From a halophilic archaeon SHRA6 (GTDB lineage: Archaea > Halobacteriota > Halobacteria > Halobacteriales > Haloferacaceae): a DNA stretch of 64,000 bases. Both the position numbers and the translations under genes were made by a program. The number at the start of each line of letters is the position of its first letter. Positions within the stretch are counted from its first letter, which is position 1. This document shows positions 1-35,244 of this stretch, piece after piece. The stretch is taken from assembly GCA_005239175.1 (NCBI GenBank), contig SOPS01000004.1:496001-560000 (forward strand). The letters run 5' to 3'. The notes under the pieces were generated by a model. It was not told the origin of the DNA, searched no databases, and saw only the letters and a program-made list of their open reading frames with translations.

Positions 1-570
1 GAGTTCGCCGCGCGTCAGGAGGTTCGTGATGAGGTTTCCGACCGTCCCAGCCGCGTAGTAGCAGTACTCCTCAAGCTCTTCGCGCGAGGAAATCCGTAGC
101 CCACCGTTTCCGGCGTGGCGTTCGACGAACATCGCCATTCCGCTGACAAGCTCTGAGACTGGCGGGACGATCGCTGCCTGAACGTCCTCAGGGAGGGTTT
201 CGAACGCAGCGAGTACGCGATCGGCGTTGGCAACGACAGTCCAGTCGGCCGAGCGGTCGGGCTCCGGTGGGAGCCACGGTTCGATCTCGGTCAGAAAGGC
301 GTCGATCGATACATCGCTTTCCGGATCAATTGCTTCATCGTAGGTTTCGAGGGCTGCGGCCTGCGCTTCGGGCGGGATGTGGCCGGCGTCCTCAACAGTG
401 TCTGCGATACGGCACAAAAGATACCCCAAGCAGATATGCGTCGACATCGGTTCTTCCAACACATCGACGGTCAGCGCGAACGTCCGCGAAACGTCCTGGA
501 CGGCGTCGCGACACCACGCGAGGTCGGCTTCAGCGTCGGCCCCGGGCGGGCGGGATTCGTGTCCATTCAT
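1..570 (-). CDS. Squalene/phytoene synthase family protein (5' part; runs off the left edge)
   Basis: Head-to-head prenyl synthase; the family joins two farnesyl or geranylgeranyl diphosphates into squalene or phytoene. The frame is open from an ATG at 570 to base 1 (190 codons), so the C-terminal third is outside the window. The N-terminus has the family signature SRTFAL, followed by YLLCRIADTVEDA, whose DTVED is the first Asp-rich diphosphate/Mg2+ site, and later YCYYAAGTVG, typical of the central helix. The form resembles haloarchaeal squalene synthases more than carotenoid CrtB, but without the C-terminus the product cannot be settled. It is transcribed away from the acyl-CoA dehydrogenase; the 157-bp gap holds both promoters. 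Confidence 0.85.
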   Translation of the reverse strand, partial: MNGHESRPPGADAEADLAWCRDAVQDVSRTFALTVDVLEEPMSTHICLGYLLCRIADTVEDAGHIPPEAQAAALETYDEAIDPESDVSIDAFLTEIEPWLPPEPDRSADWTVVANADRVLAAFETLPEDVQAAIVPPVSELVSGMAMFVERHAGNGGLRISSREELEEYCYYAAGTVGNLITNLLTRGEL

Positions 571-698
571 TCAAGTATCCTATCGTAAGGCAGCGGGGAT
601 AAAAAGTCTCTTGGGGTTTGCTCGGTGCCGGGATTGACACGAGCCAAGCCGCTGTCGATCGATTGTCACAGAAATGCATGAACAACCGTGTGGAAACG

Positions 699-705
699 CA
701 TAAGA
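699..705 (+). promoter_or_regulatory. TATA-like element of the acyl-CoA dehydrogenase gene
   Basis: The sequence CATAAGA follows a purine-rich BRE-like stretch (GGAAACG) and is centred about 26 bases before the ATG at 728. That spacing fits a leaderless haloarchaeal transcript starting at or next to the start codon. It supports 728 as the start. Confidence 0.45.
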
Positions 706-727
706 GCGGTCGGCCGAAGGACAAAAC

Positions 728-1870
728 ATGGATTTCAGCCTCTCTGCGGAACAACGACAGATCAAGGATATGGTTGCAGAGTTCGTCGACAAGGAGGTCA
801 AACCGCGCGCGGCCGAGATCGACGAAACCGACGAGTTTCCAGCAGAGCTGATCGACGAGATGGCCGAGCTTGGCCTCATGGGAATGCCGTTCCCGGAGGA
901 ATACGGCGGCGCAGGGTTGGATTACCACAGCTACGCGCTTGGACTGGCAGAACTCTCTCGAGGATCGGGTGGGCTGGGGACGATCGTGGCCGCGCACACG
1001 AGCCTCGCGGGAAACATGCTCTACGCGTTCGGCAGCCAAGAGCAAAAAGAAACGTACCTCACGCCGCTGAACCTCGGTGACGATATCGGCGCATTCGCGC
1101 TCTCTGAGCCAGGTGCGGGCAGCGACGTCCCGGCCATGGAGACGACCGCTCAACAAGACGGCGACGAGTATGTGATCGACGGCGGCAAGCTCTGGATCTC
1201 GAACGGTTCTGTCGCAGACACGGTCACACTGTTCGCAAAAACCGATCCTGACGCGGGGCGGAAAGGGATCTCCTCATTCGTCGTCCGACCCAACGAGGAC
1301 GACGGCTTCATCGTCGAGGGGACCGAGCACAAACTTGGTGATAAGGGGTGTCCGACCGCAGAGCTTCGCTTCGACGAGATGCGGATCCCGGCCGATCGAC
1401 GTCTTGGCGAGGAAGGCGATGGCTTCATCCACGCGTTGAAGACGCTCAACGGCGGCCGGATTACGATCGCCGCGCGATCGGTTGGGATCGCCCAGGCAGC
1501 CCTCGACGACGCGCTTGAATACAGCCAACAGCGCGAGCAGTTCGACCAGCCAATCTCTGGGTTCCAGTCGATCCAACACAAGCTCGCGGACATGGATACC
1601 AAACTCGAGTGTGCTCGCTTGCTGATGCATCAGGCCGCCGATAAGAAGATGCGCGGAGAGACGTTCATCAAAGAGGCCGCACAGGCGAAGCTGTACGCCA
1701 GCGAGATCTCCCGAGAGGTCGCAAACGAAGCGATCCAGATCCACGGCGGCTACGGCTACACGAAGGACTTCCCGGTCGAACGCTACTACCGCGACGCCAA
1801 ACTCAACGAGATCTACGAGGGGACGAGCGAGATTCTGCGGAACACGATCGCTGCACAGTTGCTCGATTGA
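728..1870 (+). CDS. Acyl-CoA dehydrogenase
   Basis: FAD-dependent dehydrogenase that introduces the alpha-beta double bond in acyl-CoA, passing electrons to ETF. The 380-residue length is normal. The N-terminal helical domain begins MDFSLSAEQ. The middle beta domain has the FAD/substrate signature FALSEPGAGSD and the substrate-edge motif KLWISNG. The C-terminal helical domain has IHGGYGYTKDFPVERYYRD and then IYEGTSEI, whose Glu is the catalytic base position of short/branched-chain enzymes. It stands alone in its transcription unit. Substrate length cannot be read from sequence; the AMP-ligase and MaoC hydratase elsewhere in the window are possible pathway partners. Confidence 0.95.
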   Translation: MDFSLSAEQRQIKDMVAEFVDKEVKPRAAEIDETDEFPAELIDEMAELGLMGMPFPEEYGGAGLDYHSYALGLAELSRGSGGLGTIVAAHTSLAGNMLYAFGSQEQKETYLTPLNLGDDIGAFALSEPGAGSDVPAMETTAQQDGDEYVIDGGKLWISNGSVADTVTLFAKTDPDAGRKGISSFVVRPNEDDGFIVEGTEHKLGDKGCPTAELRFDEMRIPADRRLGEEGDGFIHALKTLNGGRITIAARSVGIAQAALDDALEYSQQREQFDQPISGFQSIQHKLADMDTKLECARLLMHQAADKKMRGETFIKEAAQAKLYASEISREVANEAIQIHGGYGYTKDFPVERYYRDAKLNEIYEGTSEILRNTIAAQLLD

Positions 1871-1894
1871 ACCTCGGAGTCAGTACAGAAGGAC

Positions 1895-1970
1895 TGGCTC
1901 TGTTGAAACCCGTTCATCCTGACAAGAAGTACGTGCTGAATACAGAGCGCATATGCAGCAGATCACGACC
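1895..1970. mobile_element. Possible decayed insertion-sequence end (no transposase)
   Basis: This gap carries GGCTCTGTTGAAACC (1895-1909), resembling the terminal repeats I associate with haloarchaeal IS6-type elements, then GTGCTGAATACAGAGCG (1933-1949). The 10-mer GTGCTGAATA recurs in inverse orientation on the far side of the methyltransferase gene (2879-2888). No transposase and no target duplication are visible, so this is at best a relic. Confidence 0.2.
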
Positions 1971-2016
1971 CGGAAACGCATCATAGCACGGGAACAAATG
2001 AGCAGTAGGCCCGTGG

Positions 2017-2796
2017 TTATTCTGCAACTGCTCGGAATCCGAGCGTACGAGGCACTTTCGCCTTGAGCGCCGGTGACGAGCTCATGTCGGTATCTTCGTA
2101 GTCGTCTGGGTCGTCGCTGTGAGGCCATTCCCACATCTCCGTGACCGTGAAGCCAGCATCGACGAGTGCATTGTGGAGGTCACTGATGGTTCGATCCATG
2201 ACGATGATGTCCTCGTGTAAGACCTCGTCGTGCTTGTCGCGGCGGGTGCCGGTGTCGTGGTAGCTGCGTTCGAATTCTAACGTTGCGGGATCGAAGAGTT
2301 CGTGGACCGGGTGGGGCACATCGAAAGAGAGGTGTCCGCCTGCACGGAGTACGCGATGGGCTTCCCTAAACGCGGCGTCGAGATCCGCCACCATAAAATA
2401 CACAAATCCCGAGTGCGCCAGATCGAAGGCGTCATCAGAGACGGGAATGGTTGAGACATCGCCAGCAACGAACTCGGCATCCACACCGTAGAGGTTACGC
2501 AACCGCCTCGCATGGCGGAGTTGTTGCGTCGAAAAATCGACACCGATAGCGGTTTGAACACCATCCTGGGCAGCCCCGACCGTACCCTGTCCACCACCAC
2601 AGCCAAGCTCGATGAAGTCGATGTCCGATACCTCGGGGAGCCCTTCGGCCTGCCACTCGTCCAGTGAATCAGCGTCTGGTAAGGGCGAATACGTCGGCGG
2701 GAGACGCCCGTTATCCGTCGCACCGTTCCACATCGCCTGATGCTCGTCACTCCATTCGTCCCACAGCTCTCGATTTTCGCTATTCAGGCTCCGCAT
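2017..2796 (-). CDS. Class I SAM-dependent methyltransferase (UbiE/type-11 like)
   Basis: The 259-residue protein has a Rossmann-type methyltransferase core. Motif I is FIELGCGGGQGT near residue 60, followed by a basic linker, VAGDVSTIPVSDDAFDLAHSG (motifs II-III) and a RVLRAGGHLSFDVPHP strand. The substrate is unknown. The first about 55 residues are rich in Trp and acidic residues (ELWDEWSDEHQAMW) and probably cap the active site. The gene is monocistronic, flanked by two intergenic gaps that share an inverted 10-mer (see the IS relic entry). Start at the ATG at 2796. Confidence 0.88.
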   Translation of the reverse strand: MRSLNSENRELWDEWSDEHQAMWNGATDNGRLPPTYSPLPDADSLDEWQAEGLPEVSDIDFIELGCGGGQGTVGAAQDGVQTAIGVDFSTQQLRHARRLRNLYGVDAEFVAGDVSTIPVSDDAFDLAHSGFVYFMVADLDAAFREAHRVLRAGGHLSFDVPHPVHELFDPATLEFERSYHDTGTRRDKHDEVLHEDIIVMDRTISDLHNALVDAGFTVTEMWEWPHSDDPDDYEDTDMSSSPALKAKVPRTLGFRAVAE

Positions 2797-2859
2797 ATCC
2801 CACCTACTCGGAGACTACATAATGAATGTTGTTTAGATGGAGAAAATAACGCAGTTCCC

Positions 2860-2888
2860 GTGCTGACTACACCTCCTCTATTCAGCAC
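2860..2888 (-). terminator. Hairpin downstream of the aldo/keto reductase gene
   Basis: GTGCTGA (2860-2866) and TCAGCAC (2882-2888) form a perfect 7-bp stem around a 15-nt loop, 64 bases after the stop of the leftward aldo/keto reductase gene. On the minus strand it is followed by a T-rich stretch (TTATTTTC). Terminator is the simplest reading. The same 10-mer occurs near 1933, so it could instead be part of a decayed element. Confidence 0.35.
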
Positions 2889-2951
2889 GATCGCAAAAAT
2901 AGATCACTATCTGAGAATGTAAACAGCGTCGGAGGCTTCAATATACATCCT

Positions 2952-3926
2952 TCAGTCGTGTCCGGAGACCCGAACCGGCTCGTAGGGTTCTTCGAGGTAC
3001 TCGATGTCGCTCGATCGGAGGTCGATGTCGAGTGCCTCCACCGCGTCTTCAAGATGTTCAACTGACGTGGTTCCAACGATCGGCGCGGTGACAACATCCT
3101 TCGAAAGCACCCACGCAAGGGCGATCTGGGCCATCTTAACGCCCTTCTCGTCGGCGAGTTCGGCGACCCGGGCGTTAATCTCTTTGCCGCCGCCCTCGCG
3201 GTAGGGGTGGCGATACATGTGCTCTTCAGTCTCTCCGCGCGTCGTCGCATCGATCTCCGCATCCGGCCGCGTGAGGTACCCACGCGCCAGCGGCGACCAC
3301 GGGATCACGCCGATATCCTCGGCGGCACACAGCGGAAGCATCTCGCGTTCTTCCTCGCGATAGACGAGGTTGTAGTGGTTCTGCATTGTGACGAACCGAT
3401 CGAGTCCGAGCCGATCGCTCGTGTGCAACATATCCGCGAACTGGTGAGCCCACATTGACGACCCGCCAATATATCGCGTCTTGCCACGTCGAACTGCATC
3501 ATCGAGCGCCCGAAGCGTTGTCTCAGGCGGCGTGTCGTCGTCGTAACGGTGGATCTGTAGCAGATCGAGTGTGTCCATGCCCAGCCGATCGAGGCTCGCG
3601 TCCAGTTCCTGTTCGATCGCCTTCCGAGACAGCCCGCCAGAGTTCGGATCGTCCTCGTCCATCTGGAAGTAGACCTTACTCGCGACGACTGCTTCCTCGC
3701 GGCGGCCCTCTAGGGCCTTCCCGAGGACGCGTTCGGATTCGCCCTCGGAGTACATGTTGGCGGTATCGAAGAAGTTGATCCCGAGTTCGATCGCCCGATC
3801 GACAAGTTCGAGTCCTGCCTCCTCGTCTAACACCCACTCGCGCCAGTCACTCGTACCAAAACTCATACAGCCAAGACAGATCTTCGAGACCTCCATGCCG
3901 GTCGAGCCAAGCGTCGTGTACTCCAT
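2952..3926 (-). CDS. Aldo/keto reductase
   Basis: NAD(P)H-dependent (beta/alpha)8-barrel oxidoreductase acting on aldehydes, ketones or sugars. The 324-residue length is typical. The catalytic tetrad is visible: Asp and Tyr in FFDTANMYSEGESE, Lys in VVASKVYF, His in LQIHRYDDD. The C-terminal NADP-binding region contains PIVGTTSVEHLEDAV. It resembles the YajO/Tas-like branch. The enzyme is not tied to a pathway by its neighbours: the photolyase gene diverges from it and the methyltransferase gene downstream has its own promoter region. Confidence 0.93.
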   Translation of the reverse strand: MEYTTLGSTGMEVSKICLGCMSFGTSDWREWVLDEEAGLELVDRAIELGINFFDTANMYSEGESERVLGKALEGRREEAVVASKVYFQMDEDDPNSGGLSRKAIEQELDASLDRLGMDTLDLLQIHRYDDDTPPETTLRALDDAVRRGKTRYIGGSSMWAHQFADMLHTSDRLGLDRFVTMQNHYNLVYREEEREMLPLCAAEDIGVIPWSPLARGYLTRPDAEIDATTRGETEEHMYRHPYREGGGKEINARVAELADEKGVKMAQIALAWVLSKDVVTAPIVGTTSVEHLEDAVEALDIDLRSSDIEYLEEPYEPVRVSGHD

Positions 3927-4037
3927 GGGATGAACTCACCGCCAGACGACAAAAATCCGATCCCCCCAGCAAGCCACACGAGCGGTGTGATTCACATCGC
4001 CAGCGGTGTTTAGTGGCTGTCTCTCCTACAAACCATC

Positions 4038-5555
4038 ATGACGGTGTGGGTTCTCGGCGATCAACTCTCAACGAACTGCGGTCCGATCGAACACGCCGAC
4101 CACGTGCTCATGATCGAAGCACACGCGTTCGGCGATCGGCACCGCTATCACCCCCAGAAGCTCCTGACAGTGTTCGCGGCAATGCGATCGTTTCGCGATC
4201 GCCTGCGGGAAAGCGACTACGAGGTTACGTACCTCCGCGCAGAGACGTTCGGAGCGGCGCTCGATCGGTACTTTGAGGCGAGCCCCGATGACGACCTCGT
4301 CCTCATGGAGCCGCCGAGCTACGGGGCTGGCGATCGCCTCGAAGCCATGGTCGAAGCGCGCGGTGGAACGCTCACACGGGTCGAAAACGAGCTCTTTCTC
4401 ACGACGCCCGTGGAGTTCAACGCGTGGGCGGGCGAGCATACCGACGATCGCACGTATCGCCAAGAGAACTGGTATCGACACGTCCGCCGCGAGACAGGCA
4501 TTTTGATGGACGACGGCGAGCCGATCGGTGGCGAGTGGAACTACGACGACGAGAATCGTGAGACGCCGCCGAAAGACTGGGAACCGCCAGCAGTGCTGCG
4601 GTTCGAGCAGGACGAGACCACCCGCGAGGTGCGATCGTTCGTCGGCGATCGCTACCCAGACGCGTGGGGTCGACTGCCGGACCCCGACGAGCGCATTCCG
4701 TGGCCGGTAACCCGCGAGCAGGCGCTGGAGGCGCTCGAGTGGTTCATCGATACCCGACTTGGCGAGTTCGGCCCCTACCAGGACGCGATGGTAACCGACG
4801 AGTGGGCGCTGTCGCACTCACTCCTGTCTTCGGCGATCAACCTCGGGTTGCTCACACCAAGAGAAGTCGTTGATCGGGTCGAATCGGCCTACCATGCCGG
4901 GGACGCGCCGCTCAACAGCGTCGAAGGATTCATCCGTCAGGTGATCGGCTGGCGGGAGTTCATGCGGCACGTCTACCGGCGATCGATGCCAGAACTCGCG
5001 GCGGCAAACCAACTGGAGCAATCGCGGGAGCTGCCACCGGCGTACTGGACCGGAGAGACCGACATGCAGTGTCTGGCTGAGGCAGTCGACGGTGTGTACG
5101 ATCGCGGCTACGCCCACCACATCGAGCGGCTCATGGTGCTTTCGAACTTCGCGCTGCTGTACGGAGTCGATCCGGCCGAGCTGAACGAGTGGTTCCACCT
5201 TGGGTTCGTTGACGCGTACCACTGGGTGACCACGCCGAACGTGATCGGAATGGGTTCGTTTGGGACGGACGTGCTCTCCTCAAAACCATACGCCTCCTCG
5301 GGCAACTACATCAACCGGATGAGCGATCACTGCAAATCATGTCCCTATGCGGTCTCGAAGACGACCGGCGAGAACGCCTGTCCGTTCAACGCGCTGTACT
5401 GGGACTTCCTGAAAGAAAACGAATCGACGCTGCGTGGAACCGGCCGGATGGGGCTCATGTACTCACACGTCGACAACAAAAGCGACGAGGAGTGGGACGC
5501 GATTCGCGATCGGGCCGAGCGCGTGCGGCAACTAACGGTCCGCGGCGAACTCTGA
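4038..5555 (+). CDS. Photolyase-related protein with Fe-S cluster (FeS-BCP/PhrB class)
   Basis: Flavoprotein of the deoxyribodipyrimidine photolyase-related family; characterised relatives (Agrobacterium PhrB) repair 6-4 photoproducts and bind FAD, a lumazine-type antenna and a [4Fe-4S] cluster. The 505-residue protein begins with the antenna-domain signature VWVLGDQLS. The C-terminal half has GWREFMRHVYRR and the metal-binding cysteines C345, C432, C435 and C448. Their spacing (87, 3, 13) almost equals that of PhrB (88, 3, 13), so the cluster is very likely kept. The gene follows a TATA-like GTTTAGTGG. It sits alone between the divergent aldo/keto reductase gene and the SAMP gene 90 bp downstream. 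DNA repair is the expected role; a cryptochrome-like signalling role cannot be excluded. Confidence 0.93.
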   Translation: MTVWVLGDQLSTNCGPIEHADHVLMIEAHAFGDRHRYHPQKLLTVFAAMRSFRDRLRESDYEVTYLRAETFGAALDRYFEASPDDDLVLMEPPSYGAGDRLEAMVEARGGTLTRVENELFLTTPVEFNAWAGEHTDDRTYRQENWYRHVRRETGILMDDGEPIGGEWNYDDENRETPPKDWEPPAVLRFEQDETTREVRSFVGDRYPDAWGRLPDPDERIPWPVTREQALEALEWFIDTRLGEFGPYQDAMVTDEWALSHSLLSSAINLGLLTPREVVDRVESAYHAGDAPLNSVEGFIRQVIGWREFMRHVYRRSMPELAAANQLEQSRELPPAYWTGETDMQCLAEAVDGVYDRGYAHHIERLMVLSNFALLYGVDPAELNEWFHLGFVDAYHWVTTPNVIGMGSFGTDVLSSKPYASSGNYINRMSDHCKSCPYAVSKTTGENACPFNALYWDFLKENESTLRGTGRMGLMYSHVDNKSDEEWDAIRDRAERVRQLTVRGEL

Positions 5556-5644
5556 CCTCGGCGGCGACGCAGTGGCTATTCCAACCGTGATCCCGGTCAG
5601 GTGACGAACACAACAGCAATGCGGTATACGACCGAAAACAGTGT

Positions 5645-5911
5645 ATGGAGCTAACAGTCCACGGGCCACTTCGCGGCGTGACTGGATCGAAAACAGTCTC
5701 GATCGCGACTGACGACCACGAGGAATCGGTTCATAGCGTGCTCGAACGCTTTGTCGAGCAGTATCCACGAGCCAATCAGCAGCTGTTCGACGATGATGGA
5801 ACCCTCCGAGCAAGTGTTCGTGTGCTTGTCGACGGCGAACGTGCCGATCCGGAAACAGAGTGCCGACCGACAGCAGCGATCACACTCATTCCTGCCGCAC
5901 AGGGCGGCTGA
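5645..5911 (+). CDS. Ubiquitin-like small modifier protein (SAMP/MoaD/ThiS family)
   Basis: The 88-residue beta-grasp protein starts MELTVHGPLR and ends in the diglycine AAQGG needed for adenylation by an E1-like enzyme (UbaA in Haloferax). Family members either serve as sulfur carriers for molybdopterin or tRNA thiolation or are conjugated to lysines as archaeal ubiquitin-like tags. LFDDDGTLRASVRVLVDG matches the MoaD central region. No moaE or ubaA is adjacent, so modifier versus sulfur carrier cannot be decided. The gene follows the photolyase gene by 90 bp and converges on the acetamidase gene. Confidence 0.82.
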   Translation: MELTVHGPLRGVTGSKTVSIATDDHEESVHSVLERFVEQYPRANQQLFDDDGTLRASVRVLVDGERADPETECRPTAAITLIPAAQGG

Positions 5912-5959
5912 TCGAGGCCGGCACAAACAAGATCGAGTGAGAGCCCAGTCCGAAAATAT

Positions 5960-7264
5960 TCAGAGTCCGTACTGCTCGCGAACGACCGACGCCAGCCCCA
6001 CATCTTCGAGAATCTCCGTCGGGACAAGCATCGAAAGCTGCACAACACCCGGCAGGCGAGCGATCTCGACGCCGCCGGTGAAGGTACAGCGGGCTCGAAC
6101 CTCGCCTTCAGTCATGTCAAATAGCGACCCGGCCCGATCGAAGGCGTTGTCGGTTGCCTCGTTGACCGTCGCCCCTGAGCCGATGATCTGAAGCGGCATC
6201 GCATCCGACACGGTGTCGACACCGTACTGTGCAGCAAGCGCGTTAGCCGTCTCGCGCTCGTCGTCGGTGTACGGCTTGGCAATATCTGGGAGGTCCGACT
6301 CATTCGGCAGGAGGAGTGGGCCGTCCATCTCGACGTCTTTGATGACCTCGACTTCGAGCTCAGTCGTCCCACTCACATCAGTCGTGTGTAGTGACAGTTC
6401 CCCGTCACCCTGATTCGCGTGGAGGTCACCAACGTAGAGCCCACCACCGTCGACTCGCACCGGACAAATGAGCGTTGCACCCGGCCGCACATCGTTTGAA
6501 TCCATGTGGCCGTCAGTCCGTGCCTCGAGTTCGCTCTCGTCAGTGATTCCCCAGTCGTGATCTGCTCCGATGAGGAACTGGCCGAAATCGCCGGCGTTGT
6601 GCGAATCGGGGAGCTCAACCGCCGGCGTCGTCCCGATGTTGCCAATGAACGGCGCGAGGTGGCCGAGCGTTCCGGGGATCTCGTCTGGTTTGTACAGCAA
6701 AATCGGATGCTGGCGAGAGTTCTCGGGAAGCGCCATATTCTCGTCAGCATTCTCGGCGAGCTGATTGGCACCCTCTGGCCCGACAGTCAGCCCGATCGTT
6801 CGATCCTCGTCGAAGACGACCGTGTAGCCGTACTCGAAACCAAACGAGGAGGCGTTGGCCCCACACTCGGCACACCGAATTGCGTCCTCACCAGTCCCCT
6901 CAACGACCGTGTCGGGCCACTCTGTGCCACATTCCGGACAGCGGTGGTCAATAAACGGATCGTCGCCAAAGGCCTCATCTCGTTCGGCCATACTGCCAGT
7001 GCTAGTGGCGATACTCGTCACCGATACGTCTTTGATCCGGACGACAAGTGCGTCGCCGACCTCGGCGTTTTCAACACGGATCGGTCGGGTGACCTCATGT
7101 CCGCCGCGAAACGAGGGTGTAATCATCGGTCCCCAGCAGCCAGCGGGGGTGTGCGTTCGAACGGTCCCGCCGTCAGCAACGGTGCCCGCCCACTCTTGAT
7201 CGGGGCCGACCAACCCGAGCGTAAACTGGTCGACATCGAGTTCCTGTTGAATCTGTTGAGACAT
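5960..7264 (-). CDS. Acetamidase/formamidase family protein with inserted zinc ribbon
   Basis: Amidohydrolase of the FmdA/AmdA family, releasing ammonia from short-chain amides. The 434-residue protein has the family features HTPAGCWGP, PIRVENAEVGDALVVRI, the GHLAPFIGNIGTTPA segment, and GDLHANQGDGEL with a metal-binding His/Asp pattern. Between residues about 105 and 136 it carries CPEC and CAEC (C109, C112, C131, C134), a four-cysteine zinc ribbon set inside the N-terminal domain, which I do not associate with the textbook enzymes. The gene lies downstream of a 39-bp tandem repeat. A role in scavenging nitrogen from amides is inferred from family only. Confidence 0.85.
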   Translation of the reverse strand: MSQQIQQELDVDQFTLGLVGPDQEWAGTVADGGTVRTHTPAGCWGPMITPSFRGGHEVTRPIRVENAEVGDALVVRIKDVSVTSIATSTGSMAERDEAFGDDPFIDHRCPECGTEWPDTVVEGTGEDAIRCAECGANASSFGFEYGYTVVFDEDRTIGLTVGPEGANQLAENADENMALPENSRQHPILLYKPDEIPGTLGHLAPFIGNIGTTPAVELPDSHNAGDFGQFLIGADHDWGITDESELEARTDGHMDSNDVRPGATLICPVRVDGGGLYVGDLHANQGDGELSLHTTDVSGTTELEVEVIKDVEMDGPLLLPNESDLPDIAKPYTDDERETANALAAQYGVDTVSDAMPLQIIGSGATVNEATDNAFDRAGSLFDMTEGEVRARCTFTGGVEIARLPGVVQLSMLVPTEILEDVGLASVVREQYGL

Positions 7265-7330
7265 CTATTGTCTGTATGTGATCGATTAGCATAAATGATC
7301 TGTGAACAGTGGTTCGTCTGTACCGATCGT

Positions 7331-7447
7331 GAACTGCTCCGACACGTCGCGTGAAATTTAGTCAGTCGTAAACTGCTCCGACACGTCGCGTGAAATTTAG
7401 TCAGTCGTAAACTGCTCCAACGCGGCGCTTGAATCGCAGTCGATCGT
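7331..7447. repeat. 39-bp tandem repeat, two near-perfect copies plus a degenerate third
   Basis: Copies start at 7331 and 7370 and differ at one base (G/A at the first position); a third, diverged copy starts at 7409. The core reads AACTGCTCCGACACGTCGCG followed by TGAAATTTAGTCAGTCGT. The array fills most of the gap between acetamidase and cspA, both leftward, so it lies in the acetamidase upstream region. No spacers separate the copies, so it is not a CRISPR array. The remaining parts of this 299-bp gap hold the cspA terminator and no gene. Confidence 0.9.
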
Positions 7448-7463
7448 TGTCACTACTCGATCG

Positions 7464-7499
7464 AAAATAAGGGTGTGTGCATAGTCGCCGCTCACACCC
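7464..7499 (-). terminator. Transcription terminator of cspA
   Basis: GGGTGTG (7471-7477) pairs with CACACCC (7493-7499), a 7-bp GC-rich stem with a 15-nt loop, 64 bases past the cspA stop codon. On the minus strand the stem is followed directly by TTATTTT, giving the U-rich tail used by archaeal RNA polymerase. Confidence 0.55.
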
Positions 7500-7563
7500 G
7501 AAGACGGTCACAGCAAAACTGAAACCGCGGTTCGAAATCCGTACCGGGTAACTGCTCGCGCAG

Positions 7564-7758
7564 TTACAGTCGTTCGAGGTCTTTCGCGCGTGGGCCTTTT
7601 TCAGCTTGGACCACGTCGAATTCGACCTCTTGGCCTTCTTCGAGGTCTGGACCACCGACATCTTCCATGTGGAAGAACACGTCCTCGTCGACGTCGTCGC
7701 TTTCGATGAATCCGTAACCGCCAGTGTCGTTGAAGAAGGCTACCTTCCCTTTCGGCAT
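7564..7758 (-). CDS. cspA: Cold shock protein, CspA type
   Basis: Single OB-fold nucleic-acid chaperone of 64 residues, the normal size. RNP1 is present as GGYGFIESD and RNP2 as DVFFHMEDV, the two aromatic-rich strands that bind single-stranded RNA/DNA. Haloarchaeal CspA proteins are abundant, acidic versions of bacterial Csp. Its start region is unusual: a GAGGTG Shine-Dalgarno lies within a self-complementary segment (7763-7780), while a TATA-like TTTTTAT at 7785-7791 would instead predict an almost leaderless mRNA. A good hairpin terminator follows the gene. Confidence 0.95.
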   Translation of the reverse strand: MPKGKVAFFNDTGGYGFIESDDVDEDVFFHMEDVGGPDLEEGQEVEFDVVQAEKGPRAKDLERL

Positions 7759-7762
7759 GACA

Positions 7763-7780
7763 CCTCATGTGAGGATGAGG
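7763..7780 (-). promoter_or_regulatory. Self-complementary segment covering the cspA Shine-Dalgarno
   Basis: Read toward cspA the sequence is CCTCATCCTCACATGAGG, then TGTC and the ATG. The SD core GAGG(TG) can pair with either of two upstream CCTC copies: CCTCAT with ATGAGG (6 bp, 6-nt loop) or CCTC with GAGG (4 bp, ACAT loop). The two structures exclude each other. It matters only if the transcript starts upstream of it, which the nearby TATA-like TTTTTAT does not predict. Confidence 0.3.
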
Positions 7781-7952
7781 CAGGATAAAAACGTTTGGTA
7801 CAAAAACGAGACTGTTCCGAACAGTCCGACCGAATCACGGTGAGTGCGTACCACCTCATCAACCAATTGGACAGCGATCGCCACCAACCAGTCCGTGCAA
7901 GGTTCATATATGAAACTGCAGATTGATACCAAGCGGGCGTCTCCACAACAGT

Positions 7953-8759
7953 ATGCCAACCGTTGATTCCGACGGGGTTTCGATCAGGTATACCGTCGAC
8001 GGACCGCCGGACGCACCGGCGGTCATTGCGCTCGAAGGACTGGGCTACGGCCGCTGGATGTGGCGGTTTTTTGTTTCGGATGCCACGCCCGACCTACGGG
8101 TGATTCGTCCGGATAACCGGGGAACCGGTGAATCTGACGCACCGGAAGGGCCGTACACAATCGCCGAGATGGCCGCCGACGCCGCCGCGGTCATAGACGA
8201 GCTTGGGCTCGATCAAGTGCACGTCCTCGGGGCGTCAATGGGTGGAATGGTCGCACAACGACTTGCCCATGAGGACGATCGCGTCGAAACACTAACGCTG
8301 CTTTGTACGTCACCTGGCGGCGATCGAGCGACACCAACGCCCGAAGACGTGCTTGAACATATTTTTTCTGTGCCTCCGGATGCGACCGATCGCGAGGTGA
8401 TCCGCCATCGGATGGAGCCTGCCGTCTCAGACGACTTCTACAGTCAGGAGCCAGACCTCGTCGAATCGATCGTCGACGCTCGTCTCGAAAGTGACGCCGA
8501 ACCCGACGCACGGCAGGCTCAGGCGGCTGCGGTCGAAACGTTTGATGCCACCCACTGGGCGGCCGATCTGACGATGCCAGCCCTCGTGGTTCACGGTACG
8601 GCTGACCGGGTCCTTCCGTTCGAAAACGGCGAACTCCTCGCAGAAGTGCTGCCGAACGCAACCTTCGTGCCGATCGAAGACGGACACCACCTCTTTTTTA
8701 TCGAGAATCGAGATCAGGTGAACGACCGAATACTGACGTTTATCCATGAACATGTCTGA
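7953..8759 (+). CDS. Alpha/beta hydrolase
   Basis: The 268-residue alpha/beta-hydrolase has nucleophile elbow GASMGG, the acid Asp in VVHGTADRVLP and catalytic His in EDGHHLFFIEN near the C-terminus. The oxyanion-hole region near ALEGLGYGRWMW is typical of 3-oxoadipate enol-lactonase-like or esterase-like members, but no substrate can be assigned. The ATG at 7953 is chosen over an in-frame TTG at 7923 because the conserved fold begins immediately after MPTVDSDG. The stop overlaps the start of the acyl-CoA synthetase gene, so the two are translationally coupled and probably work on the same carboxylic acid or ester. Confidence 0.85.
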   Translation: MPTVDSDGVSIRYTVDGPPDAPAVIALEGLGYGRWMWRFFVSDATPDLRVIRPDNRGTGESDAPEGPYTIAEMAADAAAVIDELGLDQVHVLGASMGGMVAQRLAHEDDRVETLTLLCTSPGGDRATPTPEDVLEHIFSVPPDATDREVIRHRMEPAVSDDFYSQEPDLVESIVDARLESDAEPDARQAQAAAVETFDATHWAADLTMPALVVHGTADRVLPFENGELLAEVLPNATFVPIEDGHHLFFIENRDQVNDRILTFIHEHV

Positions 8760-10335
8760 AGAATCAACATTCCGAACGGACCCGCGCCCACATCCACATG
8801 CCGATCGCGGCTACGACTGGGTCGGAAATCTCTCTGGCCGCCGAGCAGCGCTTTCACCCGATCGAGTGGCGATAAAACACGGAGAAACGGGACAGACAGT
8901 CAGCTACGAAGAGCTTGATGTGCGGGCGAATCAGACCGCGAGATATCTTCGTGATCGCGGCGTCGAAAAGGGCGATCGGGTTGCGGTGGTGTCGCGAAAT
9001 CGATTTGAACTGTTGGATCTGTTCTTTGGGACCGCTAAGCTTGGAGCAATATTGGCACCCCTCTCACACCGTCTGGCCGAACGAGAGCTTGCGGCAGTGT
9101 TCAGTGACGTGGACCCACAGCTGTTGCTCGTGGAAACGCCCTTTGTCGGCGACTCGATCGATGCAATCGAGCGAGCCGACGCAGAGCCGGCGGTCCGATC
9201 GATCCCGAGTGACGGCGACAACGAGTGGACACCGTACACTGACGAACTGCCGAGCGATGGGTCGCCGATTGATCGTCCGGCAATTTCGCCCGCGGACCCC
9301 CACATGTTTTTACATACCGGTGGGTCGACGGGGACGCCCAAAGAGACCGTGCTCAGCCACGGCGCGATCAACGCGAACTCGTTCAATACGATTACCGCGT
9401 GGGGACTCCGAGAAGACGACGTGACGCCGCTTTTGTTCCCGATGTTCCACACCGGTGGGTGGAATGTGATAACCATCCCGTTCATCCACATGGGCGCGAC
9501 GCTCCTCATCAGCCCAGAGGTCAATCCAGGGAGGGTGTTAGATAACATCGAATCGGAGCGATCGACGGTCCTCGTGGGTGTGCCGGCGGTGCTCCGGATG
9601 ATGGCTCACCACGATCGATGGGACGAAACAGATCTCTCGTCGCTGCGGTTCGTCAAAAGCGGCGGCGGCCCCTGTCGGGATGCAGTGATCTCCGCGTGGC
9701 GCGATCGCGGCGTCGAGTTCTCGCAGGGCTACGGACTCACCGAGTGTGGGCCGAATAACTTCGCGATGCCCGATGCGTTTCCAGAAGTAAAGACCGAAAG
9801 CGTCGGCGTGCCTGTCCTCGGTGTTGACGCGCGGATCGTCGACGGCGACGGCGAGGCGGTCGAACCCGGTAAGATCGGCGAACTTGAACTCGCGGGGCCA
9901 GCCGCGGCCGATCGATACTGGAACAACGAAACTGAGACCGCAGAAACCTTCGGCGAGTGGGTCTCGACGGGTGATCTCGCCCGCGTCGACGCAGATGGCT
10001 TCTACCACATCGAGGGGCGAAAAAAGAACATGTTCATCTCGGGCGGTGAGAACGTCTATCCTCCGCAGGTGGAGGATGCGATCGCCGATCACCCCAAAGT
10101 TGAGGAGGTCGTCGTGATTGGAATCCCAGACGACCGATGGGGAACCGTCGGGAAGGCAGTCGTCGAAGGCGACGAGTCGCTGACACTCGACGAACTCAAA
10201 TCGCACCTCGCGTCACGAATCGCTCGCTACGCCATCCCGAAGCAACTCGCGTTCGTCGACGAAATGCCGATGAGCGGGCCGTCGAAGATCGATCGGACCG
10301 CAATTTCCGATCGCTTCGGCGCTGAGAACTCCTGA
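8746..10335 (+). CDS. AMP-forming acyl-CoA synthetase (class I adenylate-forming enzyme)
   Basis: Activates a carboxylic acid to acyl-CoA through an acyl-AMP. Over 529 residues all ANL motifs are present in order: P-loop HTGGSTGTPKETVLSH, A5 QGYGLTECGPN, A7 STGDLARVDADGFYHIEGR, A8 hinge ISGGENVYPPQVE, and the C-terminal catalytic lysine in GPSKIDR. It resembles medium/long-chain or phenylacetate/benzoate-type ligases of the FadD/MenE group; the substrate is not readable. ATGs at 8746 and 8752 are both possible; either overlaps the hydrolase gene by 8-14 bp. Confidence 0.93.
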   Translation: MNMSEESTFRTDPRPHPHADRGYDWVGNLSGRRAALSPDRVAIKHGETGQTVSYEELDVRANQTARYLRDRGVEKGDRVAVVSRNRFELLDLFFGTAKLGAILAPLSHRLAERELAAVFSDVDPQLLLVETPFVGDSIDAIERADAEPAVRSIPSDGDNEWTPYTDELPSDGSPIDRPAISPADPHMFLHTGGSTGTPKETVLSHGAINANSFNTITAWGLREDDVTPLLFPMFHTGGWNVITIPFIHMGATLLISPEVNPGRVLDNIESERSTVLVGVPAVLRMMAHHDRWDETDLSSLRFVKSGGGPCRDAVISAWRDRGVEFSQGYGLTECGPNNFAMPDAFPEVKTESVGVPVLGVDARIVDGDGEAVEPGKIGELELAGPAAADRYWNNETETAETFGEWVSTGDLARVDADGFYHIEGRKKNMFISGGENVYPPQVEDAIADHPKVEEVVVIGIPDDRWGTVGKAVVEGDESLTLDELKSHLASRIARYAIPKQLAFVDEMPMSGPSKIDRTAISDRFGAENS

Positions 10336-10415
10336 GCGCCTAACACAGAGCTGTGTGCAGCGTACGTCTGCACGATCGCCACAACACTTACAACCCGTGA
10401 TTCAAATCATTGTTC

Positions 10416-11132
10416 ATGATTGATATCACGATGGACATGGAGCAGTTTGACTGTCCGTTCATCGACACCACCGCAGATCACGACGTTGCCTTCTCGTCGA
10501 TCAACTGGCAACTCGATACAGCCGCCGAGCAGCTCGAAACGCGGATGATTGTCGAATCGCCCGACTGCTGGGAGCTCGACGCTGGGCTTACCGACCTCCG
10601 AGAGCACCCTAATATGACAGATTATAAGCAATTTTCGAAACAGGACGGGACGGCGGTGATTCGGACGACGATCGAAGAGACCAACGCGATGTCGACGATT
10701 ACGGATCACGGCGGGTACATTACCGGGCCGTTCCACATCGAAGACGGCTCAGAACGGTGGCAGGTTGGGTTCGACGACGAGCAAACCGCCCAGGATGCGG
10801 TTGTCGCGTTGGAGAAGGGAAACGAGTTCGACATTGAGCGACGATCCGATGTCGAACTCGATCAGTTATTCGACATTATGCGGCATGCAGACGCAGCCAC
10901 AACGCTGTTAGATGCCTGCAGAACCCTCTCTGCGGTCGAAGAGGACACACTCACCACTGCGGCCGAAGCCGGCTATTTCGAGTCACCACGGAAGGCGACA
11001 CTTTCGACGCTTGCCGACGAATTCGATGTCTCGACCGCTGCGGTCTCGAAAAATATGCGCCGTGGTGAAAAGAAACTCCTGCGGAGTGTAGTAACGGCAC
11101 TCGAGTCACTGGAGTCAGGGACAGACGAGTAA
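10416..11132 (+). CDS. HTH-10 (bacterio-opsin activator-type) transcriptional regulator
   Basis: The 238-residue protein ends in a helix-turn-helix of the HTH_10 family (PF04967), seen as LTTAAEAGYFESPRKATLSTLADEFDVS followed by TAAVSKNMRRGEKKLL. The N-terminal about 150 residues form a haloarchaeal sensor-like domain containing WQVGFDDEQTA. Relatives regulate diverse haloarchaeal genes; Bat regulates bacteriorhodopsin. Start at ATG 10416 rather than the in-frame TTG at 10410, behind an ACTTACAAC element. It lies between the hydrolase/ligase pair and the large ABC operon, all rightward, and is the obvious candidate to control one of them. Confidence 0.88.
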   Translation: MIDITMDMEQFDCPFIDTTADHDVAFSSINWQLDTAAEQLETRMIVESPDCWELDAGLTDLREHPNMTDYKQFSKQDGTAVIRTTIEETNAMSTITDHGGYITGPFHIEDGSERWQVGFDDEQTAQDAVVALEKGNEFDIERRSDVELDQLFDIMRHADAATTLLDACRTLSAVEEDTLTTAAEAGYFESPRKATLSTLADEFDVSTAAVSKNMRRGEKKLLRSVVTALESLESGTDE

Positions 11133-11281
11133 TTCGGGAGCGTCCACCGTACGTCACTGAGAATAGCGGGACGCGATGGCGATTTTACACATCGTACAGT
11201 CACCCATTGCATGGAAGGGACAGCAGATAGGTTATGATATTAACCGCGTAGCCTATGGCAATCGCCTATCGTCAAACATGT

Positions 11282-12739
11282 ATGCGAGAGAAAAACACAC
11301 GACGACGGTATCTACAGGCCATCGGGACGGCCGGAACGATTGGAATTGCAGGCTTCGCCGGCTGTACCGGCGGTAACGGGAATGGCAACGGAGACTCTGA
11401 AGATAATGGCGAATCCGGGAATGGCAACGGCGACTCAGACGGGAACGGCGACTCTGACGGTAACGGCGACTCCGATTCGACAGATGACAGTGGGCTTCCG
11501 AGCGGTACTCTCACGATCGGCGTATTGCAGCCGCTCACCGGCGATCTCGAATACTACGGCCTACAGTCACTGTGGGGATTCCTTTCTGGGCTGGCGTACA
11601 AGGTGGACCAGGAGCCGCTTGCGGTGGAGTCGGCGGGCACAGAAACGATCGAAGCAGACGAGTTGACGATCGAACTCCGTATCGAAGATTCACAGTTCGA
11701 CGCAGATCAGGCCCAGTCGGTGGCGACGGACCTCGTCGAGGATGTCGGCGTCGACTTGCTGTTCGGAACAGCCTCCTCAGGTGCTGCCCGCCGAGTGATC
11801 GAGACAGTCGCGATCCCCTCAAGTACGCCGTTCATCGCAGGCCCTGCGGCAGCCTCGGATTTCACAGCCGATTCAGACACCTGTAGCGAGTTCGTGTTCC
11901 GGGCGAGCGAAAACACGGTCATGGACGCCAGATCAGGCGGACGCTATGTTGCCCAGGAAACCGATGTCGAACGGGTGTACATCATGGCTGCGGACTACTC
12001 GTTCGGTCAAGCAGTCGCCGCAAACTATCGAACCGTTCTCGAGGCCGAAGGGGTAGAGGTCGTTGGCGAGCAGTTTGTTCCCCAAGGCTACTCGGAGTTT
12101 GAAGGATTATTCGAGAACGCCGTCGAAGCCGATGCGGATGCCGTGATCGGCGGCTTCACCGTTGCGACGTTGCCGCAGTTCCTCAGCGTCGGACTCGAAG
12201 GCGGCTACGACCTCCGGATGTTCGGCGGCTTCGCGACACAGATTAGCGTCAACGCGATCGGAGGCGTCGCCGAACGGGTCCTCGGCGAGGATCTGACCGA
12301 ACAGGACCTCAAAGACGCCAAACTCGGGCCGTTTACGACCCGATATCACTGGAACCAGTACGACAACCCGATCAACGACGCCTTTGTGGAGATGTACACC
12401 GATGCGTATGGGGTCGTGCCGGACCTGTTTACCTCCGGAACGTTCGCTGCTGCGTCCTCCGTCGTTCAGGCCGCCGAATCGAGCGGTTCGACCGATGGCG
12501 CCGATCTCGCGGCCGCCATGCGTGGCATGACGATCGCAGAGACGCCGAAGGGAACGGACGCGTACGTCTACCAGGAGTACAACAACCAGGCGCGCTCGGA
12601 GATGACTGTCGCGTACCCAGTTCCGAATACCGAGGACAACTGGGATGCGGCACTCATGCCCGGAGAGCCAGTCGCTCGAATCGGCATGGACGAGGTAACG
12701 CTCCCAGCAGACGACGACGATATGGACTGCTCATTATAA
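11282..12739 (+). CDS. Branched-chain-amino-acid-type ABC transporter substrate-binding lipoprotein (LivJ/LivK-like)
   Basis: Periplasmic-binding-protein-type receptor of the Leu/Ile/Val (type I) family. The N-terminus has a twin-arginine signal (NTRRRYLQ), hydrophobic core and lipobox GFAGC, so it should be Tat-exported and lipid-anchored. A low-complexity Gly/Asn/Asp/Ser tether of about 40 residues follows. The mature domain starts TLTIGVLQPLTGDLEYYG, the family's first strand, and has LLFGTASSGAARR and YFSGxxD-like DYSFGQAVAANY elements. I prefer ATG 11282, which puts the Arg pair at residues 6-8; an upstream in-frame ATG at 11255 adds nine residues. First gene of a six-gene operon; its TAA abuts the next ATG. 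Ligands of this family range from amino acids to aromatic and dicarboxylic acids and amides. Confidence 0.9.
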   Translation: MREKNTRRRYLQAIGTAGTIGIAGFAGCTGGNGNGNGDSEDNGESGNGNGDSDGNGDSDGNGDSDSTDDSGLPSGTLTIGVLQPLTGDLEYYGLQSLWGFLSGLAYKVDQEPLAVESAGTETIEADELTIELRIEDSQFDADQAQSVATDLVEDVGVDLLFGTASSGAARRVIETVAIPSSTPFIAGPAAASDFTADSDTCSEFVFRASENTVMDARSGGRYVAQETDVERVYIMAADYSFGQAVAANYRTVLEAEGVEVVGEQFVPQGYSEFEGLFENAVEADADAVIGGFTVATLPQFLSVGLEGGYDLRMFGGFATQISVNAIGGVAERVLGEDLTEQDLKDAKLGPFTTRYHWNQYDNPINDAFVEMYTDAYGVVPDLFTSGTFAAASSVVQAAESSGSTDGADLAAAMRGMTIAETPKGTDAYVYQEYNNQARSEMTVAYPVPNTEDNWDAALMPGEPVARIGMDEVTLPADDDDMDCSL

Positions 12740-13522
12740 ATGGTACTCCGAACGACCGGCTTGACGAAGCACTTCGGCGGACTCACCGCGATCGACGAGG
12801 TTACCTTCGAACTTGCTGGCGACGAGTGCTGCTCGCTGATCGGACCGAACGGCGCCGGGAAAACCACGTTTTTCAATCTACTGACCGGCACGCTCGCTCC
12901 CTCCGAAGGACGTGTGGAGTTCAAAACTGCTGGAGAGTGGCGTGATTTGACGGACGCCCAGACGCACGAGACCGCGCAGGCAGGCATCCACCGATCGTAT
13001 CAGATCTCCAATCTCTTCCCGACGTCGTCGGTGCTCGAAAATGTGCGGATCGCCGCACAGGCACACGGCTCCGATTCGTGGAAGCTCTGGCAGAACGCCG
13101 AGAACCTCACTCAATACACCGAAGAAGCGTACCGTATCCTCGATCGGGTCGGGCTCGAAGACGACGCTCACTCGACGGCCGCGGCATTGAGCCACGGGAA
13201 TAAGCGGAATCTCGAGGTCGCGATCGCACTCGCCGGTGACCCAGACGTGCTGTTGCTCGATGAGCCAACCTCAGGGGTCTCGACAGACGGAATCGAAGAC
13301 GTGATCGGTGTAATCGACGACGTCGCCGAGGATCACGCAATTCTGTTGGTCGAACACAATATGGACGTCGTCATGGAGGTGTCCGATCGAATTGCGGTGT
13401 TACATCAGGGGCAACTGATCGCCAACGACCAGCCGGATGCTGTGAGAGACGATCCAGCCGTGCAGGAAGCGTATCTTGGCGGGTATGCGGGCGGCGAAAC
13501 CGGCCGTGGAGGTGCCGCATGA
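12740..13522 (+). CDS. ABC transporter ATP-binding protein, LivG-like
   Basis: Nucleotide-binding subunit of the importer. The 260-residue protein has Walker A GPNGAGKTT, a signature segment ALSHGNKRNLEVAIAL (LSHGNKR in place of the LSGGQQR consensus, as is common in LivG), Walker B VLLLDEPTSGV and switch His in LVEHNMDVV. It begins on the base after the LivJ-like stop and overlaps livF by 4 bp (ATGA), which indicates tight translational coupling. Confidence 0.93.
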   Translation: MVLRTTGLTKHFGGLTAIDEVTFELAGDECCSLIGPNGAGKTTFFNLLTGTLAPSEGRVEFKTAGEWRDLTDAQTHETAQAGIHRSYQISNLFPTSSVLENVRIAAQAHGSDSWKLWQNAENLTQYTEEAYRILDRVGLEDDAHSTAAALSHGNKRNLEVAIALAGDPDVLLLDEPTSGVSTDGIEDVIGVIDDVAEDHAILLVEHNMDVVMEVSDRIAVLHQGQLIANDQPDAVRDDPAVQEAYLGGYAGGETGRGGAA

Positions 13523-14217
13523 CGCTGCTACGGCTCGATAACGTTCACGCGTCTTATGGACAGAGCACGGTCCTGCAGGGCGTCTCCCTTGAGATCGAGG
13601 CTGGCGAGGTCGTCGCACTAATCGGCCGAAACGGTGTCGGCAAAACCACGACGATTCGATCGATCCTCGGGCTCACCCCACCCAGTTCGGGAACGGTCCA
13701 GTTCCGCGACGGCGACATCACGGGAATGGAAACACACGACATCGCCCAGCGAGGGATCGGGTGGGTTCCCGAAGATCGTCGGATGTTTTCGAACTTAACC
13801 GTAGACGAGAACATTCGGATCGCCACGCCGAATCCGGCGAACGTCCCCGACGCATTCGAAACCGCGTACTCGACGTTTCCGGAACTTACCGAACACCGCA
13901 AAAAGCCAGCGGGCGACCTCTCTGGTGGCCAACAGCAGATGGTTGCGATCGCCCGCGGACTCGTCGGTGATAACGACCTGTTGTTGGTTGACGAACCGTC
14001 TGAGGGATTGGCACCGCTCATTGTCGACGCCGTGGCTGAAGCGATCGAAACCGTCAGTCAGGAGGCCACCGTCCTCCTCGTTGAACAGAACTTCCCGCTC
14101 GCCATGGAGCTTGCAGATCGGTACTACCTCCTCGCTCACGGCACCGTTGTCGATAGTGGTTCAACCGAAGGCGTCTCCCGAGATGACGAGATGATACGGA
14201 GGCACCTCTCGGCATGA
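13519..14217 (+). CDS. ABC transporter ATP-binding protein, LivF-like
   Basis: Second nucleotide-binding subunit, pairing with the LivG-like protein. The 232-residue length is normal. Walker A is GRNGVGKTT, the signature DLSGGQQQM, Walker B LLLVDEPSEGLAP and the H-loop position is Gln (LVEQNF), as usual for LivF. The segment GIGWVPEDRRMFSNLTV is the LivF hallmark (YVPEgR). It overlaps both neighbours by 4 bp. Confidence 0.94.
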   Translation: MTLLRLDNVHASYGQSTVLQGVSLEIEAGEVVALIGRNGVGKTTTIRSILGLTPPSSGTVQFRDGDITGMETHDIAQRGIGWVPEDRRMFSNLTVDENIRIATPNPANVPDAFETAYSTFPELTEHRKKPAGDLSGGQQQMVAIARGLVGDNDLLLVDEPSEGLAPLIVDAVAEAIETVSQEATVLLVEQNFPLAMELADRYYLLAHGTVVDSGSTEGVSRDDEMIRRHLSA

Positions 14218-17768: not shown

Positions 17769-17780
17769 ACTGTTCTCATC

Positions 17781-18188
17781 TTAAGATTCATCGTGGGCAA
17801 CCGAAAGCACGACGGCCTCACCAGAGAGGACCGTCTCGTCTCGCTGTGGAACGCGTGCGGTCGTTTCAACACGGATTCGATCGCCGCCGATCACCTCACG
17901 AACCGACGCGGTGGCGACGACCCGATCGCCCGGCCGGACAGGTCCCTCGAACTGCAACTCCTGTGAGAGATAGATTATATCACCGGAAAGCGCCGCGAGC
18001 GCGGCACTAATCACCCCTGCGGACAGCGCGCCGTGGGCGATCGGACCTTCGAACATGGTCTCTGCGGCGTATTCTGGATCCGTGTGAATCGGGTTATGGT
18101 CTCCAGAGAGTTCAGCGAAGGCCTCGATCGACTCGCGCGTAATCGTCTGTGATGCGGTCGCCGTCTCTCCTACTGCTGCGACTGGCAT
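17781..18188 (-). CDS. MaoC family dehydratase (R-specific enoyl-CoA hydratase-like)
   Basis: Single hot-dog domain of 135 residues. It carries the hydratase signature as SGDHNPIHTDPEYA, with catalytic Asp and His, followed by EGPIAHGALSAG. Such proteins hydrate trans-2-enoyl-CoA in beta-oxidation or feed PHA synthesis. It converges on the condensing-enzyme gene with only 12 bp between stops. The match of function (acyl-CoA chemistry) with the ligase, acyl-CoA dehydrogenase and condensing enzyme is suggestive, though it is on the other strand. Confidence 0.92.
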   Translation of the reverse strand: MPVAAVGETATASQTITRESIEAFAELSGDHNPIHTDPEYAAETMFEGPIAHGALSAGVISAALAALSGDIIYLSQELQFEGPVRPGDRVVATASVREVIGGDRIRVETTARVPQRDETVLSGEAVVLSVAHDES

Positions 18189-18277
18189 ACCCCAACAGGG
18201 GCGGCCAGCGTTGTTGAATCGGTGGGTTCAGGAGTGAACCCGACGCGGCAGAAATCGTCGTAATCTATGCCTACTCG

Positions 18278-20872: not shown

Positions 20873-20913
20873 CTTGTGTATACATACGGTCTCCCTTCTG
20901 AACCCGGTTGTGG

Positions 20914-20926
20914 TTTCGAATCAAAA
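20914..20926 (-). promoter_or_regulatory. Candidate copper-module operator upstream of copA
   Basis: In the copA direction the sequence is TTTTGATTCGAAA, ending 42 bases before the ATG. The identical 13-mer lies in the same orientation and at almost the same distance (40 bases) before the HMA chaperone gene. Proximity to an Lrp-TRASH gene suggests that regulator as the binder; this is inference. Confidence 0.55.
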
Positions 20927-35240: not shown

Positions 35241-35244
35241 TCGG

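Follow-up and report, generated by a model that had tools for sequence, protein, structure and literature searches.

The palindrome CGATCG is over-represented, beyond what codon and dinucleotide usage yield, in the genome of a haloarchaeon, in that of its congener G195 and in that of G144, a relative from another genus, and the existence of a HIP1-like CGATCG palindrome in this clade is well supported. The window, by which we mean the whole 64,000-nucleotide stretch of DNA analysed here, contains the motif throughout; the motif and the gene from which our counts start are the following.

1..64000, strand not applicable: CGATCG palindrome, 352 dispersed copies, 5.5 per kb, in genes (all frames) and between genes
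4038..5555, + strand: gene of a deoxyribodipyrimidine photo-lyase-related protein, 505 aa, PF04244, with 13 CGATCG, 8.6 per kb, a local high

Abundance of CGATCG against null models

An exact count agrees with the 13 copies, or 8.6 per kb, that an earlier note on this DNA had given for the photolyase gene, the starts lying at 4084, 4133, 4185, 4196, 4262, 4331, 4445, 4522, 4632, 4646, 4980, 5099 and 5507. The same note had extended this density to most of the window, which is indeed dense, but not as dense as the photolyase gene. Base composition predicts 20.4 copies in the 64 kb (0.32 per kb, in line with the earlier estimate of about 0.3), as against 352 seen, and a third-order Markov model predicts 244. 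However, this model was trained on counts that include CGATCG itself, i.e. on motif-full sequence, and codon-aware nulls were therefore used. In the called coding sequences, which make up 57 kb of the window, 321 copies stand against 95 (sd 8) under a synonymous shuffle and against 171 (sd 8) under a shuffle that also preserves the dinucleotides at codon boundaries (z 18.8), and under this latter null the runner-up among 64 palindromes reaches a z of 3.6. What is more, each of the three coding frames lies above the same null (44, 154 and 123 copies seen, 11, 101 and 60 expected), and the excess extends to intergenic DNA: 59.5 kb of it, drawn from the window together with 17 sampled stretches of 20 kb from the window's genome (G000), contain 251 copies, where second- and third-order Markov models give 78.5 and 134.9. 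Over the full genome of 3.36 Mb the count is 16,962, or 5.05 per kb, and the shorter word GATC occurs there at 3.4-3.7 times its base-composition expectation. The CGATCG excess is real, but ordinary usage of codons and dinucleotides accounts for much of the 17-fold difference from base composition.

A regular spacing of the motif is ruled out by the gaps in the window, which are near geometric (mean 182, sd 173). Across 1,984 sampled gaps the mean is 200 and the sd, at 241, exceeds it, with excesses at distance 4 (48 overlapping copies) and at multiples of 3 (780); we attribute these excesses and the wide sd to overlap, to the reading frame and to motif-poor stretches. As a separate observation, GGCGCC is strongly depleted in the G000 samples and the window (49 copies, 175 under the dicodon null), and likewise in many, not all, of the sampled relatives.

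The favoured unit and its codon context

When the ten NGATCN classes are compared with the dicodon null, CGATCG alone is clearly above it, at 1.84 in G000 and 3.18 in G144, a genome from a different genus of the same family, with the nine remaining classes at 0.70-1.09 and 0.65-1.10, respectively. CGATCG is above expectation in each of its ten flank classes, most strongly in those with C or G outside, and the octamer ratios in G000 are 2.74 for CCGATCGG, 2.05 for GCGATCGC and 1.44 for ACGATCGT. The favoured unit is the hexamer CGATCG with any flank, and the HIP1 octamer GCGATCGC is ruled out as the unit, given that every flank class is enriched and that CCGATCGG lies above it. The earlier remark that the motif often occurs as GCGATCGC holds weakly, for 41 of the 352 copies in the window and, genome-wide, for 1,642 as against 16,962 CGATCG. 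The most depleted one-letter neighbour is CAATCG/CGATTG, at 0.56 in G000 and 0.42 in G144.

Codon choice carries the same signal. Among the Asp codons of G000, GAT has a share of 87% in the C_CG context and 64% between C and C-not-G, whereas the shares without the upstream C are 53% and 52% in the same two downstream contexts and 28% before other letters. Expressed as the log odds of GAT in C_CG versus C_CH, this amounts to 1.40 [1.12, 1.69] in G000, 2.06 [1.34, 3.02] in its congener G195 and 2.02 [1.14, 3.06] in G144. Elsewhere the same quantity is -0.06 (named Halorubrum loci), -0.10 (Halobellus) and -0.22 [-0.34, -0.10] in a pool of 41 other genomes, namely the 42 other genomes minus G016, whose loci are under 10 kb. 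Similarly, the Arg codon CGA takes 64% before TC vs 22% elsewhere in G000, and 85% vs 34% in G144. GAT is favoured before C, also outside the motif, in many sampled haloarchaea; the additional effect of the full hexamer is found, among the sampled genomes, only in this clade.

Distribution among haloarchaeal genomes

G000 tops both the count and the density of CGATCG among 195 genomes of the order and 148 of the family. Its congener G195 contains 15,984 copies genome-wide, and G144, at about 51% GC, contains 11,565 (3.5 per kb), such that the window's genus and G144 together span 3.5-5 copies per kb, i.e. one per 200 to 280 bases. Such raw counts mislead, however, since many haloarchaea avoid the word (G037, 88% complete, has 4 copies in 1.9 Mb) and the 2-3.7 per kb of some GC-rich genomes is largely compositional; G003, at about 3.7 per kb over its whole genome, even lies above G144. 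Against the dicodon null, a strong excess appears in a 45-genome sample only in G000 (1,398 vs 783) and G144 (133 vs 40, and 304 vs 93 in a larger sample), with G195 weaker in a first 20-kb sample (41 vs 25) and clear in a larger one (274 vs 157). This sample comprises 340 kb of G000 and 40 kb of most others, half of that for G195 and G220 and shorter stretches for G158, G099, G111 and G016, and it leaves out G060, G267, G230, G313, G260 and G233. In three of the 42 other genomes (G003, G099 and G111) the excess is mild (z 3.2-4.0) and comes without the codon-context effect, and the other 39 stay at a z of 1.7 or less.

One could argue from these 39 genomes, and from the 171 of 321 copies that the null accounts for in the window's coding sequences, that composition is the whole explanation, i.e. 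that haloarchaeal codon usage, dinucleotides and amino-acid pairs yield the count. Set against this are the difference between 321 and 171 (sd 8) itself, the excess between genes, a hexamer codon-context effect that is absent from the 41 pooled genomes, and the conservation of CGATCG described below, and we find such an account barely credible. Codon usage and dinucleotides alone are rejected on the strength of the dicodon nulls, the NGATCN classes and the codon-context test. The earlier note had allowed that a Markov model or codon usage might fully explain the count; none of the Markov, shuffle, dicodon and codon-context tests does so.

As for the identity of the carriers, the window's photolyase shares, over best segments, 97% identity with that of Halalkalirubrum salinum N1521, the closest named one, and 75% with that of Natronocalculus amylovorans AArc-St2. 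A 23-row tree built from photolyases joins the window and these two species in one branch (support 100/99), although a tree of a single gene is a weak guide to the species tree and this one has L178 (translated straight through) on a long branch. Match and tree place the host in Haloferacaceae, so that it is not cyanobacterial, and they bear out the archaeal host of the earlier note. The window's genus is probably Halalkalirubrum and that of G144 probably Natronocalculus; we infer that G195 is H. salinum N1521 and G144 N. amylovorans AArc-St2.

Other palindromes and other genomes deserve mention in their own right. CTCGAG, which most other sampled genomes avoid, lies above the dicodon null in two relatives from family f7, G112 (L079-L080; 115 vs 67) and G128 (L081-L082; 176 vs 114), where it is possibly an alternate iterated palindrome. 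GTCGAC lies above the same null in two genomes of family f1, genus g12, namely G173 (L038-L039; 78 vs 45) and G220 (L040; 33 vs 20), both of which have CGATCG below it. Finally, in 177 kb of Haloferax loci (L145-L152 and L167) the words are nearly absent (GATC 0.15 per kb, CGATCG 0.04 per kb), in agreement with the low GATC reported for Haloferax in PMC5867850.

Conservation and turnover between relatives

In an alignment of G000 and G195 of about 64 kb with 4,554 differences, CGATCG is shared between the two congeners at a fraction of 0.856, which ranks it first of 139 same-composition hexamers with at least 100 occurrences (mean 0.719); with G144 the fraction is 0.43, first of 70 hexamers with at least 40 occurrences (mean 0.14). 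Over 64 genes of G000 and G195, 71 differences fall on motif sites, where identical codons with identical flanks elsewhere predict 110.7, counting classes with at least 15 sites (0.64, Poisson p 3.6e-5); in this comparison, loss at motif positions 5 and 6 is not reduced (1.13 and 0.93 of expectation).

Turnover was also expressed relative to the identical change with identical neighbours elsewhere, several of the rates resting on 1-5 events. Loss of CGATCG is then at 0.12-0.62 in seven of nine distinct one-letter changes, several transversions included; the remaining two stand at 0.92 and 0.98, on 1 and 4 events. Five of the six inner changes show a raised gain, at 1.9-4.8 (CAATCG 3.2, CGGTCG 2.2, CGCTCG 1.9, and two at 4.7-4.8 on 1 and 4 events); gain is not raised, in the same alignment, via CCATCG (0.5, 1 event) or via the three outer changes (0.7-1.1). 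A word that is lost slowly and gained fast bears the signature of a selection-like force. As to the codons, GAT is lost at 0.040 in C_CG and 0.064 in C_CH, with no significant difference (p 0.36), and its loss in the motif context is lower than in contexts without a following C (p 7e-7); Arg CGA before TC likewise shows reduced loss (p 3e-6). Changes polarised with G144 comprise 9 gains, 20 losses and 10 ambiguous cases, and so give no sign of a net spread of CGATCG, on a number of changes that is too small.

The change from CGATTG to CGATCG is the fastest T-to-C of 162 contexts (0.45, with a median of 0.026), and CAATCG/CGATTG is, as noted, the most depleted neighbour of the motif. Both would be expected if a Vsr-like or other T:G-directed repair restored CGATTG to CGATCG and the motif accumulated in this way. 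That said, the Vsr repair endonuclease (PF03852) has no match in any of the 26 genomes searched, including G000, G195 and G144. Other losses, several transversions among them, are suppressed as well, which the repair of a single mismatch type cannot explain, and T:G-directed repair as the source of the motif strikes us as very improbable.

A different case is weak selection at each site, in which an abundant protein of the clade (DNA-binding, nucleoid, replication or recombination) would bind CGATCG by preference, so that new copies would be favoured at any location. The slower loss for most changes and the faster inner gains fit a scaled strength that we estimate at about 1-2, and the conservation extends to the distance of G144; in fact, weak selection for a DNA-binding protein would leave almost the same trace as biased conversion between chromosome copies, to which we return below. 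However, the near-random spacing in the window, the presence in all frames and the lack of a preferred location speak against it, some 17,000 sites would each require a tiny benefit, and no CGATCG-binding protein is known. We regard weak selection as possible but doubtful.

Motif-poor stretches

The motif thins out in one segment of the window.

30047..33375, strand not applicable: motif-poor segment that the syntenic G195 contig of the congener lacks, with 10 CGATCG, 3.0 per kb, GC 51.5%

Nine starts lie in 30,001-33,000, which agrees with the earlier note's figure of about nine copies for a poorer stretch at 30.2-33.2 kb. The segment carries three called genes, one ferritin-like (PF13668) and two without a Pfam match. 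It would fit acquired DNA still unfilled with CGATCG, although this reading is only suggestive, as 2% of equal-sized windows (3.3 kb) have an equally low density.

Elsewhere in the window, 7,823-18,268 spans about 10.4 kb, as against about 1.3 kb on the syntenic G195 contig. Its CGATCG density is ordinary (5.3 per kb), and this suggests a deletion in the congener rather than a recent acquisition in the window's genome. Among the 17 sampled 20-kb stretches of G000, two fall below half the usual density, L016 (G000:C3:100001-120000; 2.25 per kb) and L022 (G000:C1:800001-820000; 2.35 per kb); they are richer in CTAG (1.10 and 0.85 per kb, respectively) and are possibly genomic islands.

Methyltransferase searches

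The earlier note had suggested that a methylation or repair system acting on GATC might be behind the motif; a GATC or CGATCG methylation system is not supported by the protein families searched. In the METHYLTRANSFERASES results, PF02086 (Dam type) has matches in 79 of 195 genomes, a set without G195, and none in G000 or G144, and neither PF00145 (C5 type) nor PF05869 has a match in G000, G195 or G144. A Dam-type or C5 methyltransferase as the driver is thus rejected, as far as the searches with these three families go. PF01555 finds one protein in each of G000, G195 and G144. The G000 enzyme is 0.92 identical to that of G195 and 0.59 to that of G144. Among 14 proteins compared from genomes beyond the clade, 11 are 0.56-0.67 identical to it and three, at 0.27-0.31, are different enzymes; judged by these identities, the G000 enzyme represents a type that is widespread among haloarchaea. 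Its family is probably that of the conserved orphan methyltransferases which PMC6471742 and PMC5867850 tie to CTAG; this specificity is taken from the family, as no NCBIfam model scores above cut-off for the G000 enzyme. With ordinary identities, and with CTAG still avoided in G000, G195 and G144 (0.06-0.19 of expectation), there is no sign of a switch of this enzyme to CGATCG. G000 also carries a type I system (HsdM), which is rejected as the driver since PF02384 has no match in G144; G195 has only two weak ones.

Could a CGATCG or GATC methyltransferase that escapes recognition, working with mismatch repair as has been suggested for cyanobacterial HIP1, nevertheless make and keep the sites? 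Families of the type IIG and PglX-like kind lie outside the profile searches and could hide such an enzyme, and the cyanobacterial motif does go with enzymes of this specificity (PMC4390886). Against this stand the empty searches, the ordinary identities and CTAG avoidance of the lone PF01555 enzyme, a type I HsdM without a counterpart in G144 and, what is more, the unit itself, as the cyanobacterial model, as given in PMC4390886, predicts an octamer and we find a hexamer. We consider a hidden methyltransferase unlikely.

Discussion

What, then, maintains the motif? The excess in all frames and between genes, together with the slowing of most types of loss, argues against codon effects, gene-specific regulation and the repair of a single mismatch type. 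It would rather be a force that reads the intact hexamer, and not a codon, a gene or one type of mismatch. One candidate is mismatch repair or gene conversion biased by the hexamer, in which the CGATCG-bearing copy of the chromosome would serve as the template. Haloarchaea are polyploid and undergo gene conversion between their chromosome copies, and a bias of this kind could therefore work as a drive across thousands of sites, none of which would need a function of its own. It is our tentative belief, held at somewhat short of even confidence, that CGATCG is maintained by mismatch repair or gene conversion with a bias directed by the hexamer. It counts against this explanation that no CGATCG-reading protein was identified in our analysis, and, with the steps of the mechanism inferred, the present data do not tell biased conversion and selection apart.

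Since no methyltransferase of the GATC- or CGATCG-linked families searched was found, the methylation-coupled HIP1 model may be unneeded here. The case apparently arose independently of cyanobacterial HIP1. Taken together, these points would amount to an archaeal, methylation-free sequence drive, in which recognition of the bare hexamer would bias repair or conversion between chromosome copies, such that the word spreads and is kept, and which would have evolved independently of cyanobacteria; we put it forward as a conjecture of rather low probability.

HIP-like palindromes were already known from cyanobacteria (PMC4390886) and GATC excess from haloarchaea (PMC6471742). Among the literature matches listed, which consist of titles and starts of abstracts and are incomplete for subscription papers, no haloarchaeal report of CGATCG or GCGATCGC was present, and we likewise found there no earlier report of an archaeal case that works at the level of the hexamer, is limited to one clade and lacks the usual enzymes. 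The reason for HIP1 in cyanobacteria is an open question, and the proposal in PMC4390886 explains it by methylation together with mismatch repair. Here the core is the same, the origin apparently independent, the host an archaeon with relatives free of the effect, and the usual enzymes have so far not been found; this offers a natural way to ask whether methylation is required, and named relatives with strain names (N1521, AArc-St2) make modification, repair bias and binding proteins testable.

Comparison with known systems

According to Fullmer et al. 2019 (PMC6471742), GATC is over-represented in most haloarchaeal genomes. The GATC excess linked to the Dam-like orphan methyltransferase of that study (cHG W) may be compared with ours insofar as GATC is at 3.4-3.7 times base composition here, and differs in that beyond the dicodon null only CGATCG is in excess here and in that the most CGATCG-rich genome, G000, is without PF02086, as is G144. 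The alternate HIPs of some cyanobacteria (TCGATCGA and others) are alike as iterated palindromes other than GCGATCGC. Their hosts possess a methyltransferase specific for the alternate sequence (PMC4390886), whereas here no matching enzyme was found in the families searched (PF02086, PF00145 and PF05869).

The likeness drawn by the earlier note, that to the cyanobacterial HIP1 (GCGATCGC), stands in that CGATCG is over-represented beyond composition, dispersed genome-wide, present in all frames and conserved around the same core, and falls short in that the favoured word is a hexamer with any flank, where the cyanobacterial unit is an octamer. In particular, the CGATCG sites are kept above comparable words (rank 1 of 139 and 1 of 70), and such conservation is a defining trait of HIP1. 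The two differ further in that the host here is an archaeon, and in that the CGATCG excess of cyanobacteria mostly vanishes once HIP1 is subtracted (PMC4390886). Cyanobacterial HIP1 accompanies CGATCG or GATC methyltransferases, and a GATC-specific DmtA is found in almost all cyanobacteria outside Group C1, whereas the window's genome has no PF02086; that said, some high-HIP1 cyanobacteria are also without a recognised CGATCG methyltransferase, and three of the four have the highest absolute CGATCG densities (PMC4390886). Finally, the genomic islands of Synechococcus elongatus are marked by sparse HIP1 (PMC3025956), and the thin motif in 30,047-33,375 of the window may be a parallel to this.
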